46,346 nt of DNA from Gemmatimonadota bacterium. Its GTDB lineage: Bacteria > Gemmatimonadota > Gemmatimonadetes > Gemmatimonadales > GWC2-71-9. The stretch is from assembly GCA_016794805.1 (NCBI GenBank), contig JAEUJI010000274.1, positions 1 to 46,346 on the forward strand, written 5' to 3'. Every line of letters begins with the position of its first letter. Positions within the stretch are counted from its first letter, which is position 1. Both the position numbers and the translations under genes were made by a program. This document shows, piece by piece, positions 21,470 to 26,970 of the stretch. A model generated the notes under the pieces. It was given only the letters and a program-made list of their open reading frames with translations, was not told the origin of the DNA and searched no databases.

Positions 21470-21560
21470 CCTGTCAGCACTGGCCTCGTCAAAATCCATA
21501 AAGTGTTTATGAACAAAGAGTTACACAATAGGCCCGAGTGTTGCTCTAATGTACAGCGTT
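21470..21560. promoter_or_regulatory. AT-rich upstream region with CATAAA-GTG-TTTATG dyad
   Basis: This is the most AT-rich patch of the window outside 45100-45140. A perfect six-base inverted repeat (21497-21511, three-base loop GTG) lies about 100 bases before the GYF-like gene start at 21603. The nonamer AAGTGTTTA here recurs in the AT-rich patch at 45121-45129. I cannot place a confident -35/-10 pair, but this is the likely promoter/operator region of the gene. Confidence 0.45.
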
Positions 21561-21602
21561 CTGGAACAACCACGGCAAGCCTACGGTGTGGAGGCGGATG
21601 CC

Positions 21603-23615
21603 ATGTATCGGATCCGGTCGGCAACAGGGACGGAAGCGGTCTATAACTCCCTCGAGGAATTCCATGCGGCGGTCCGGAACGGACAGGTCGCGCCCGAGGA
21701 CGAGATCTTTCATAGCCGTGCGAATCGCTGGCTGGATGTGAAGAGCCACCCCCACTACCGGAGTGTCATCGGCTGGCTGGGCAATGGCGACGTGGCGACC
21801 GTCCCTCCCCCCGCGCTGACACCGGCGGCGCCGGTGCGCGGCGTGTCGAGCCCGCCCCCGGCCCCTCCCCGTCCGGCCGACCCGGGCTCGCGTGCGCCGG
21901 AGCGCGTGGAGGCTGCCCGCCCCGCCGCCCAGCAGACCGTCCTCCGTCCGCAGCTGGTGGCGGAGGCTCCCGCACCGAAGGCCGCCGCCCCGGCGCCGGC
22001 CCCGGCCGGGCCGCCGCGCAAGAGCAAGGAGATCCCCTTCATCGACGTGGGCGACACGCCGCCCAGCACCCGGCATCACGCCACGGTGATGCAGGCGCAG
22101 AAGCCCCCCGTGGCCACGGCCGTGAAGCCCGCCACCAAGCCGGCGCCCGTGGCGCCCCAGGGCACGGAGCTCCAGTTCCTCGTCATGGATGATGGGATCG
22201 AATCGCCCGTGCGGAACTCGTCGGGCCATCGCACCATCCCCGAGGATCTCCACCTCCTCTTCGATCCGCCGAAGCCCGCGGCCCCCCGGCCGGCGGCCGC
22301 CAGTGCCCCGGTGGCCGAACCGCCGAAGGCGCCGGCGCCCAAGGCAGAAGTGGCGGCCGCCCTCGCTCCGAAGGTCGAGGCGCCGAAGAAAGTCGAGGCG
22401 CCGAAGGTCGAACCCGCGAAGCAGGTCGAGACGCCGAAGCAGGTCGCGGCCCCCAAGGTCGAAGCGCCGAAGGTCGAGGCCCCAAAGGCCGAAGCGCCGA
22501 AGCTCGAGGTCCCAAAGGTCGAGGCTCCCAGGATCGAAGCCGCGAAGGTCGAGGCTCCGAGGCCGGCCCCTGCGGTGGATCTCGACATTCCCGGCCCGGC
22601 GCTGCTCCCCGAGCCGCTCGCGGCCACCGCAGCCCACCCCGCGCCCCGGAGCGCGGGCAACCTGCGCAAGGGACTCCTGGTGGGCGCGGGCGCCTTCATC
22701 GTGCTGATGGGCGTGGCGGTCGCCGCGTGGAAGCCGTGGGCCCGGGACGCCGCTGCCACCTCCGGCGCACTGGCGGCGCCCAGCGCCACCGCGCCGACGC
22801 CCGGGACGGCACTCTCCAACTCCGGTGCGGCCACCCTCGCCCCCGGCGGGAGCCGGACGGCGGCGGTTGGCGCACCGGCGGGCCTCAATCGGACCACGGA
22901 CCCCGTGGTTCCGCCCAAGACCGACTCGGCGAAGCCGGACGAGGAGATCATTGCCGCCCGTCCCGCCTTCCGCCCCAGCATGGACGTGAGTACCGCAGGC
23001 CTCTCGGTCGGCACCGACATTCCGGCCGCCGGCGGCGGGGCGAAGGCGGTCCCCCCCAGTGAACTGGCGCGCCGCCTGACCCAGGCGGAGCAGCAGGCAC
23101 AGCAGGATCTCGTGGCCAAGCTGGGCGGATTCCGGGCGCTGCTGGCCCCGGAACGGATCGGCACGGCGGACGGCGCGGCGCGGGCCAGGGCCGCGTGGGC
23201 CGCGGGTGGCGACGCCATCCGGCAGTACCGCTCCCGGATCGCGCGGCTGTCCCAGGCCTATGAGGACAGCGTCCTCAGCAGCCAGCGCAGCCAGCGCTGG
23301 CCGGCGGACGAGATGCGGGCGTGGGGCTCGCGGCAGAGCCTCTCGGAGACGGCGGAGACGGCGCAGCTCGCCGACCTGATGATCAGCCAGGTCACGGAAG
23401 GGCTCGAACTGCTCGCGGCGCTGGACGGCAAGTACCAGATCAAGGGCGACCGCATCATCTTCAGCAATGCCGGCTCGATCCCGCGCTACCTCAGCATCCG
23501 CACCTGGGTGGATCAGCGGATGGGCGCCTGGCAGGCCACGCCGGAAAACGCGCGGCCCTACACGCTGAACGCGATCCTGCGCGCCCTCGGCGAGGGATTC
23601 CCTGCCGCGCAGTAG
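21603..23615 (+). CDS. GYF-like-domain transmembrane protein with Lys/Pro/Glu repeat linker
   Basis: 670 residues from ATG 21603. The start is set by GGAGG eight bases upstream; an in-frame ATG at 21549 lacks such a site. Residues 1-60 (MYRIRSATGTEAVYNSLEEF, then GQVAPEDEIFHSRANRW) look like a GYF_2/DUF4339 domain, an adaptor for Pro-rich peptides. A long Pro/Ala region follows, then about 80 residues of KVEAPK-type repeats (about 240-322). One membrane helix lies near 355-377. The outer part has a second Ala/Thr/Pro linker and a helical C-terminal domain of about 180 residues with no known motif. Adaptor inside, helical domain outside suggests a membrane-spanning coupling protein; function is unknown. 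Confidence 0.8.
   Translation: MYRIRSATGTEAVYNSLEEFHAAVRNGQVAPEDEIFHSRANRWLDVKSHPHYRSVIGWLGNGDVATVPPPALTPAAPVRGVSSPPPAPPRPADPGSRAPERVEAARPAAQQTVLRPQLVAEAPAPKAAAPAPAPAGPPRKSKEIPFIDVGDTPPSTRHHATVMQAQKPPVATAVKPATKPAPVAPQGTELQFLVMDDGIESPVRNSSGHRTIPEDLHLLFDPPKPAAPRPAAASAPVAEPPKAPAPKAEVAAALAPKVEAPKKVEAPKVEPAKQVETPKQVAAPKVEAPKVEAPKAEAPKLEVPKVEAPRIEAAKVEAPRPAPAVDLDIPGPALLPEPLAATAAHPAPRSAGNLRKGLLVGAGAFIVLMGVAVAAWKPWARDAAATSGALAAPSATAPTPGTALSNSGAATLAPGGSRTAAVGAPAGLNRTTDPVVPPKTDSAKPDEEIIAARPAFRPSMDVSTAGLSVGTDIPAAGGGAKAVPPSELARRLTQAEQQAQQDLVAKLGGFRALLAPERIGTADGAARARAAWAAGGDAIRQYRSRIARLSQAYEDSVLSSQRSQRWPADEMRAWGSRQSLSETAETAQLADLMISQVTEGLELLAALDGKYQIKGDRIIFSNAGSIPRYLSIRTWVDQRMGAWQATPENARPYTLNAILRALGEGFPAAQ
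22321..22566. repeat. Degenerate tandem repeats encoding KVEAPK-type linker
   Basis: Imperfect 12-18 base units (GCGCCGAAGGTCGAG and variants) encode alternating Lys-Val-Glu-Ala-Pro blocks within the GYF-like gene. The charge alternation suggests an extended rod-like linker just before the membrane helix, as in TonB-type proteins. The repeats are coding, not mobile. Confidence 0.8.
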
Positions 23616-24301: not shown

Positions 24302-26686
24302 TCAGGGTTTCACGAACAGCGTGGCCCAGTCGCGGTCGGCCATGACGACCAGCTTGAGGTGGAGCCGCCCGGTGGTGGCATCGAAGAAGAACCGGTCGCC
24401 GCCGGACCCGGCGAATTCGGCGAGCGAGGCGGCGGCGCTCATCGGGTTTCCCGCCCAGTAGTCGCGCACCACCTGGCTCGGTGGCGCGGCATAGGGCAAC
24501 GTGACGGTCACCTGGTCCCCCGGCGCCGCGCTGTTGAGGTAGAACCGGGGCTGGGCCGGCGTGGCGCCGGTCCAGGTCACGCCGTAGCCCCGGCCGGGCA
24601 GCACCGAGAGGGCGGCGTGGGCCGTGCCGTTGCCGGTGCCCGTGAGGTCGAGCGCCACCGCGTCGTCCCGCTGGATGGTGAGCGGGGCGATCGCCTCTCC
24701 GGCGGCGCTGTTGACCGACAGCTTGGCGAAGCGGGTATCGCAGACATGCGCGTTCCACGCCGCCTGGTAGGCGCATCCCGGGGAGAGGAGGATCGGGGTG
24801 TTGGCGGTGACCCAGCGTCCCGGGGTGCCGGTGACGGCGCCACCCTGGTCCAGGAAGACCGCGGACTTGTCGCCATCCTTGTCCCCGTGCGGGTTCTCGA
24901 GATACACCGGCGTCGCGTTCACGAAGCTCATGCCGCCGGCGTAGTTCAGCGGGTCGATCGGGAAGGCGTTGGTCCGGTTGTACCCCAGCGCGCTGGCGGG
25001 CACCGTGGTGGCCGCGGTGTAGTTGATGAAGGTGACATTGTCGGCCCAGACCCGGCCGTCGTAGAACTCGAAGCCGCGAAGGGCGGTGCCGGAGGGAAGC
25101 GCGGCGATGCTCCCCGACTGCCCGATGAAGGTGCTGTTCACCACCGAGGTCTCGTACGCGGCGAAGGTCGCCCCGATCGCGTTGTCGGCCAGGACGGCGT
25201 TCGAGAGCCGGAGGTAGGTGCCCCGGAGCCAGACGGCGCGCCCGTAGTGCTTGTAGGCCCGGAAGCCGGTGAAGTCGGCGAGGACGGGAGCGGAGTTCGG
25301 GTCGGCGGGGTCGGTCACCGGGTCGTAGTTGGTCACCGTGGTGGTGCCGTTCATCAGCGGCCCGTCGTCCACGTGCAGCCCGCCGAAGTGGTTCGAGTGG
25401 GCCACGTTGCCGGAGAATTCCCGGAGCGGGGTGCGCCGGGGGCGGTCCGGGGCGCCCACGGAGAGCCCGGTCGGCGCGTCGGGGAAGGCACACCAGAAGC
25501 CGAACCCCCTGGACCCGGCGGCCACGTTGTCCCGCACCGTGTTATCGGGGTTGGTGATCCAGAAGGTCGCCGGCCGGTCGTCGGAGCCGAGCAGCCGGTC
25601 GGCAGGTGCGGGGATCCGGCTGGTGAGGCCGAGGTTGCCCTCGATGAGGTTGCCGGTCTCGGCGCCGTCCTCGAGGAAGTAGCCATGGCCGGTGTGGTCA
25701 TAGCAGAGGTTGTCCTGCACGGTCGCGTTGTCGCTGCCGTGCACCGTGACGCACCGGCTGAAGGTCCGCCAGACGGTGTTGTTGCGGAAGTACTGGCCGG
25801 ACACATCGCCCGCCATGTGCCAGTGCATCGGGTAGCGGGCGAGCTTCCCCCGCTGGCCCATCTGGAACAGCTCCACCCCCTCGATCCTGGCGGTGGCGCC
25901 GGCCAGGACGATCAGATGCCCGCCGTAGCCCGGCGTGGAGCCGGTGTCCCCGCGGATCGTGATGTTGCGGCTGAGGAGCCCGACCTCCGCGCGCTCGTCC
26001 ACCTGCACCCCGTTGACCGGGACCACTTCGCCGAAGTGCTCCCGCCGGAGGCCCGCCTCGAGCGTCAGGGTGCGGCCGTTCACCGCAGTCACCACCGCCT
26101 CCTCAGCCCGGTCCTGGCTGTACTCGCTGGAGGCCACGACGATCCGGTCGCCCACCCGCCACCCGGGGTTCCGGACCAGGGTGATACTGGTCGCGCCCTG
26201 CGGCGCCGTCCCATCCAGCCGGGTCCAGCCGCCGCGGCCCTGGCCGTGGAGGTCGATCCGGCCCGAGACGCCGATCAGCTTGTTGCCCAGGCCCGACACG
26301 TCGGGATCGCCCGGGGTGCCGGTGAGGGTGATGAGGGCACGGTGAGGCCAGGGATTCGCCTCGGTGCCGGCGCTCAGGCTGCCCTCCACCAGGATCCACC
26401 CGGTGGTGAGGTCCAGGTCGGTGTCGCCGAAGACGAGATCGCCCTTGATCGTGAGACTGTGGAGGGTGGGGGGACTGGTATCCAGCCGGACCGCGAGCCC
26501 GGCGGGGATCACGACCGAGTCCCCCGCCGATGGCACCTGCCCGGAGGGCCAGGTCGCCGGATTGGACCAGGCCTTGAGGCCTCCCGGGGGCGGCATGCCA
26601 CCGCCGTCCGGGGCGGTGGACTCCGCGGTGCAGCCCAGGAGCAGCATGCCAAACGCGATGGCCAGGCGACCGGGGATCTGTCGCAT
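24302..26686 (-). CDS. G8-domain beta-helix lipoprotein, CEMIP/TMEM2-like
   Basis: 794 residues from ATG 26686, with GAGAGG seven bases upstream. A lipoprotein signal ends in LLLGC (Cys19). Residues about 37-155 form a G8 domain (KAWSNPATWPSGQVPSAGD onward). Then comes a right-handed parallel beta-helix region with motifs I recall from vertebrate CEMIP and TMEM2: YPMHWHMAGDV (about 284), TFSRCVTVHGS (about 308), GHGYFLEDGAETGN (about 331), FWITNPDNTV, NVAHSN, and AVWLRG with LADNAIG. The two animal proteins are linked to hyaluronan breakdown. The bacterial protein is probably surface-anchored and acts on, or binds, a polysaccharide; that activity is inferred. The C-terminal 150 residues are a beta-rich domain without assignment. 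Confidence 0.87.
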   Translation of the reverse strand: MRQIPGRLAIAFGMLLLGCTAESTAPDGGGMPPPGGLKAWSNPATWPSGQVPSAGDSVVIPAGLAVRLDTSPPTLHSLTIKGDLVFGDTDLDLTTGWILVEGSLSAGTEANPWPHRALITLTGTPGDPDVSGLGNKLIGVSGRIDLHGQGRGGWTRLDGTAPQGATSITLVRNPGWRVGDRIVVASSEYSQDRAEEAVVTAVNGRTLTLEAGLRREHFGEVVPVNGVQVDERAEVGLLSRNITIRGDTGSTPGYGGHLIVLAGATARIEGVELFQMGQRGKLARYPMHWHMAGDVSGQYFRNNTVWRTFSRCVTVHGSDNATVQDNLCYDHTGHGYFLEDGAETGNLIEGNLGLTSRIPAPADRLLGSDDRPATFWITNPDNTVRDNVAAGSRGFGFWCAFPDAPTGLSVGAPDRPRRTPLREFSGNVAHSNHFGGLHVDDGPLMNGTTTVTNYDPVTDPADPNSAPVLADFTGFRAYKHYGRAVWLRGTYLRLSNAVLADNAIGATFAAYETSVVNSTFIGQSGSIAALPSGTALRGFEFYDGRVWADNVTFINYTAATTVPASALGYNRTNAFPIDPLNYAGGMSFVNATPVYLENPHGDKDGDKSAVFLDQGGAVTGTPGRWVTANTPILLSPGCAYQAAWNAHVCDTRFAKLSVNSAAGEAIAPLTIQRDDAVALDLTGTGNGTAHAALSVLPGRGYGVTWTGATPAQPRFYLNSAAPGDQVTVTLPYAAPPSQVVRDYWAGNPMSAAASLAEFAGSGGDRFFFDATTGRLHLKLVVMADRDWATLFVKP

Positions 26687-26970
26687 GCGCAGCCTCTCGA
26701 TGTCGGTTGGGAACCTTCGACGTCCCGCGATGGACTGATGATCGGGCGCAGTCCGGCACGGCACAACTGCGAGTTATTGGACGCTGTCAGTTCCCTCGAC
26801 AGCCGGCCGCCCGGAGCGTGGCCCGCATGCGGCACCAGGTGACCGCGGTCACCGTGCCGGCGCCACGACCGGACGCGCCGTCGCATGGCCCGCCGGTTGC
26901 CACCTTCTCACGCAGCATGGGATGTCGGCGCCTCTCGCCGGTGCATCCCGCAGAAGCGAAGGGGAATTGC

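Follow-up and report, generated by a model that had tools for sequence, protein, structure and literature searches.

The closest described system is human TMEM2 (CEMIP2), whose activity is in dispute (summarised in PMC12254123). The structural study of TMEM2 detected no activity and left the active site unassigned (PMC10206443), and a second study also finds the human protein inactive (PMC10276149); a study of purified protein reports that it degrades hyaluronan (PMC10474455). The substitutions R265C, D273N, and D286N are reported to abolish activity (PMC10206443; PMC10276149), and loop 627-662 is said to block the middle of the concave face. In bacteria, proteins of this kind are already known at the level of annotation: Pfam models match them, and their NCBI name is "G8 domain-containing protein". 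No paper on bacterial CEMIP/TMEM2 relatives was found in the literature searched, which leaves most subscription journals outside, and in a 2024 review of hyaluronan-degrading enzymes from microbes, CEMIP occurs only in the title of a reference. The bacterial family that carries a CEMIP/TMEM2-like core is broad and little studied.

The member described here is encoded in a 46,346-nt stretch of Gemmatimonadota DNA (the window; its product is the window protein). The gene, with 794 codons and a stop, occupies 24302..26686 of the minus strand, as do all of its features given below. Its open reading frame (26686..24302) has its 3' end exactly at 24302 and its best start at the ATG at 26686, with a Shine-Dalgarno-like GAGAGG (26693..26698) 6 nt 5' of the ATG. 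A whole-genome search found a single copy in its own genome (G8 1.8e-30). Residues 1-19 (26630..26686) make up a lipoprotein signal peptide with LLLG directly before Cys19, and the lipobox, MRQIPGRLAIAFGMLLLG followed by C19, was assigned by eye and by pattern. Cys19 is invariant in 20 of 20 aligned Gemmatimonadota sequences. A simple lipobox test was passed by 20/22 Gemmatimonadota, 18/19 Deinococcota, 8/27 Pseudomonadota, and 1/9 Actinomycetota relatives. The surface anchoring that an earlier note on this DNA had read from the lipobox is thus well supported by the cysteine kept across the phylum and by the lipoboxes of most Deinococcota relatives, and to judge by sequence the window protein is an exported lipoprotein, probably located on the outer surface. 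The sole lipobox-positive Actinomycetota relative (JADLHW010000143.1, labelled Thermoleophilia; copy 80% identical) is probably a misassigned Gemmatimonadota contig.

Is the likeness to TMEM2 confined to the G8 domain? The G8 region (residues 45-157; 26216..26554) forms the first coils of the beta-helix and matches Pfam PF10162 at 1.9e-29, and the CEMIP beta-helix domain (residues 254-436; 25379..25927) matches PF24606 at 2.3e-69, both exceeding the cut-off. A domain X-like beta-sandwich (about residues 654-794; 24305..24727) follows the beta-helix: the profile alignment to TMEM2 reaches chain position 1057 of the human ectodomain structure (8c6i), and the fold match, too, spans the protein. 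The Pfam model CEMIP_X (PF24605) scores 0.031 in the window protein, below cut-off, and 12 of 20 relatives match it at 0.01. Against all PDB chains, the sole significant phmmer match is 8c6i (1.8e-73); a profile of the 20 aligned Gemmatimonadota sequences reaches 2.5e-144 with the same structure and finds nothing else significant. By domain, the profile E-value against TMEM2 is 5e-125 for the beta-helix with domain X and 1.6e-14 for G8, so that similarity peaks outside G8. All seven sequence blocks that the earlier note had listed in shared order are present and align in order to the human protein (window/TMEM2: HWHMAGDV/HFHLCGDV, TFSRCVTVHG/SFSRCITVHG, GHGYFLEDG/GHCFFLEDG, FWITNPDN/FWIAHPNN, NVAHSN/NRVHSN, AVWLRG/GAWVRG, and ADNAIG/ADNGIG).

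The predicted structure agrees. The AlphaFold2 model of the window protein (mean pLDDT 90, pTM 0.87) has 8c6i as its top Foldseek match (E 2e-45, TM 0.84 on the query), and the runner-up falls to E 1e-11 and TM 0.31; the fold is that of TMEM2. Pfam, the profile alignment, and the fold match together rule out a likeness limited to G8, and the resemblance proposed from the letters is borne out at three levels, in sequence, in profile, and in predicted structure. On these grounds the window protein is a true, shortened relative of human CEMIP/TMEM2, homologous over almost its whole length. What it lacks are the lectin-like domains. TMEM2 residues about 250-418 (chain 168-336), the lectin-like/GG domain 1 inserted in the helix, have no counterpart, this domain being found neither by Pfam nor in the TMEM2 alignment. 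Lectin-like domain 2, at the C-terminal end of TMEM2, is missing as well, since the window protein stops at domain X. It therefore belongs to the CEMIP/TMEM2 core family and does not have the animal architecture.

High similarity to a human protein could also arise by recent gene transfer from an animal or by eukaryotic contamination. The distribution of the gene speaks strongly against this. A relative is carried, with a bacterial lipobox, by 26 of 298 Gemmatimonadota genomes; a genome-wide scan confirmed 342 related bacterial loci, and the best 80 of these spread over Gemmatimonadota, Deinococcota (Meiothermus, Trueperaceae), Actinomycetota, Chloroflexota, Acidobacteriota, and Pseudomonadota, by the submitters' titles. 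The Gemmatimonadota sequences, moreover, form a group of their own in phylogenetic trees. Contamination or recent transfer was rejected on this distribution, and we regard it as extremely improbable. Among viral sequences, one phage contig (IMGVR_UViG_3300038306_000202; L103), which also has the gene for a T4-type terminase large subunit, encodes at L103:4902-7610 a protein of 902 aa that contains G8 (6.6e-16) and the CEMIP beta-helix (2e-49); its match to TMEM2 scores 2.3e-30. When viral sequences were scanned a second time, no further copy turned up, and known phages (INPHARED) gave no match.

The earlier note had further suggested a bearing on the origin of the animal family, and here the outcome is more limited. 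With diverged bacterial G8 proteins as the outgroup, TMEM2 joins the clade of the window protein, and SH-aLRT values of 98-100 support the branches that exclude the Planctomyces and Rhodobacterales sequences. This grouping stands, but a position of TMEM2 inside the bacterial clade is not told apart from one beside it (AU p 0.44, with one eukaryotic sequence and long branches). In the first, larger tree, TMEM2 was without a supported partner.

Which residues have been kept across this distance? Human residue numbers are obtained by adding 82 to the 8c6i chain position, an offset deduced from the structure paper (PMC10206443): of the four unpaired cysteines that it names, three (554, 750, and 940) coincide with chain cysteines. 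An alignment of 56 bacterial sequences and TMEM2 contains 82 columns that are at least 95% conserved in the bacteria and identical in the human protein. When five very diverged relatives were added (Vitreoscilla, Planctomyces, Leisingera, Antarctobacter, and Salipiger; 18-26% identity to TMEM2), 12 polar or aromatic residues were kept in all five: W176, E195, Y285, H288, H290, H316, E339, E343, N351, W376, N387, and H430. H217, D369, D440, and D501 were kept in four of the five. By conservation, the candidate active or metal site comprises H288-W-H290 (25817..25825; TMEM2 H550 and H552), H316 (25739..25741; H585), and E339 to E343 (25658..25672; E608 and E612). H430 (25397..25399; H722) is common to the bacterial set, TMEM2, and the diverged relatives, and D440 (25367..25369; D732) is also shared with TMEM2.

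Secondary-structure prediction places H290 immediately after strand 287-289, and H316, E339, and D440 immediately after strands 313-315, 336-338, and 437-439, respectively. This shared position should bring H290, H316, and E339 above one another in consecutive coils; H288 would lie on the face of H290. Judged from predicted secondary structure only, these three residues and H288 would form one site. Three histidines and one glutamate are a common metal-binding set. The refinement statistics of 8c6i list one Ni2+, its place not being stated in the text, for a protein that was His-tagged (PMC10206443); we claim no link. We tentatively propose that H288/H290/H316/E339 (TMEM2 H550/H552/H585/E608) may be the active site for the CEMIP/TMEM2 family as a whole, and if so probably a metal-binding one; the bacterial proteins would then be enzymes pared down to the core, and the lectin-like domain of the animal proteins, to which the inactivating substitutions map, an added module for substrate delivery. 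This broader proposal is possible rather than probable.

Both the fold and the patch of conserved residues speak for an enzyme that cuts glycans. With moderate confidence, and on sequence and model, we favor the reading that the window protein sits on the surface as a lipoprotein and cleaves a polysaccharide. Its core has the CEMIP/TMEM2 fold, in which domain X follows a long right-handed beta-helix that includes G8, and would bind an extracellular polysaccharide along that helix. Cleavage inside the chain would fall to the patch H288/H290/H316/E339, with E343, H430, and D440 nearby and possibly a bound metal at its center. The substrate would more likely be an environmental or bacterial polymer of acidic or amino sugars than animal hyaluronan. 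The weaker fold matches, mostly to polysaccharide-cleaving proteins, the gene context of diverged Rhodobacterales relatives, and the lipoboxes also count in favor of this reading. Against it count the window's lack of glycan-related neighbors, the lack of GH88 in the genome, the negative activity result for TMEM2 (PMC10206443), and the loss of the lectin-like domain that holds the inactivating substitutions.

Could the conserved residues instead be structural or ligand-binding, in a non-catalytic surface lipoprotein for glycan binding or adhesion? The two reports that human TMEM2 is itself inactive (PMC10206443; PMC10276149) fit this, as does the lack of a sugar-use operon at the locus. Against it, the His/Glu set is strictly kept from phylum to phylum and even in relatives that have diverged far. 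Binding faces usually drift, and such constancy is rather what one expects of a catalytic or metal site; we consider a purely binding role unlikely.

A specific hyaluronidase, or another glycosaminoglycan-degrading enzyme like the animal relatives, seems to us quite unlikely. Gemmatimonadota are not known for glycosaminoglycan use. The strongest PDB match is indeed TMEM2, for which hyaluronan degradation by purified protein is reported (PMC10474455), yet R265, D273, and D286, the sites of the inactivating substitutions, fall in the stretch of lectin-like domain 1 that has no counterpart in the window protein. The GH88 unsaturated-uronide hydrolase is also absent from its own 97%-complete genome, which makes use of unsaturated uronides released by a lyase less likely, and no match above cut-off was found in four related genomes; an unsaturated-uronide pathway was rejected on these results. 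Beyond kinship with TMEM2, nothing found supports hyaluronan specificity. One partial Hepar_II_III_C match lies elsewhere in the genome.

For the polysaccharide-cutting lipoprotein that we favor, gene context differs between the window and distant relatives. The 46,346-nt window holds no glycan-related neighbors, the neighboring genes encoding a response regulator, a protein kinase, a tRNA-editing-like protein, and YceI, and a polysaccharide-use locus around the gene was accordingly rejected. A crude clustering of open reading frames around 80 related loci, made without a gene caller, showed no obvious recurrent sugar partner, and no RNA families were found near the gene. The window also encodes, at 21549-23615 on the plus strand, a protein of 688 aa that has a PKVEAPKVEAPK-type repeat, a hydrophobic stretch, and no Pfam match. 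On three Rhodobacterales plasmids (L107, L108, and L109), very diverged G8/beta-helix proteins adjoin genes for a glycosyltransferase, sulfotransferase, O-antigen ligase, or LPS, which fits work on polysaccharides and suggests that these proteins make or trim exopolysaccharide. A Croceibacterium atlanticum plasmid (L104:3835-14430) has two CEMIP-like genes that bracket a TonB-dependent receptor, a MarR regulator, and DUF6152 proteins.

How, then, does the window protein compare with known systems? Chondroitinase B, other glycan enzymes with a beta-helix, and phage depolymerases have the right-handed parallel beta-helix in common with it (PMC10206443; fold search) and show no sequence relation to it in PDB searches. 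The weaker Foldseek matches are mostly polysaccharide-cleaving proteins of this fold (phage depolymerases, tailspikes, K1 capsule lyase, GH110, and GH87), the depolymerases with a TM of only about 0.1-0.3, and a search of a viral structure library gave weak beta-helix matches only (TM up to 0.33). Bacterial proteins named by NCBI for their G8 domain, such as those of Croceibacterium and of Vitreoscilla plasmids, have the same layout of G8 and CEMIP_beta-hel; the Rhodobacterales members, which sit in exopolysaccharide gene regions, are 23-25% identical to the window protein. Human CEMIP/KIAA1199 (HYBID), compared via Pfam and TMEM2 only, is of the same family by the common Pfam CEMIP models.

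The closest counterpart is the TMEM2 ectodomain (8c6i), with a beta-helix and embedded G8, the CEMIP beta-helix, and domain X in identical order, 34% identity across the 719 columns in which the multiple alignment pairs the two, and the His/Glu patch in common. The window protein differs in its anchor, a lipid where TMEM2 has a transmembrane helix, and in the counterpart of loop 627-662, which is about 20 residues shorter. That the human TMEM2 core has close bacterial relatives makes the origin of that part of the animal hyaluronan machinery approachable. Lectin-free bacterial cores with invariant His and Glu would make it possible to test directly whether the fold cuts sugar, and at which site, and the comparison of bacterium and human points to a small set of His and Glu residues as the candidate active site of the human family. 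What the present analysis adds to the annotated bacterial proteins is an architecture that is free of lectin-like domains and lipid-anchored, together with a conserved site shared with the human protein.
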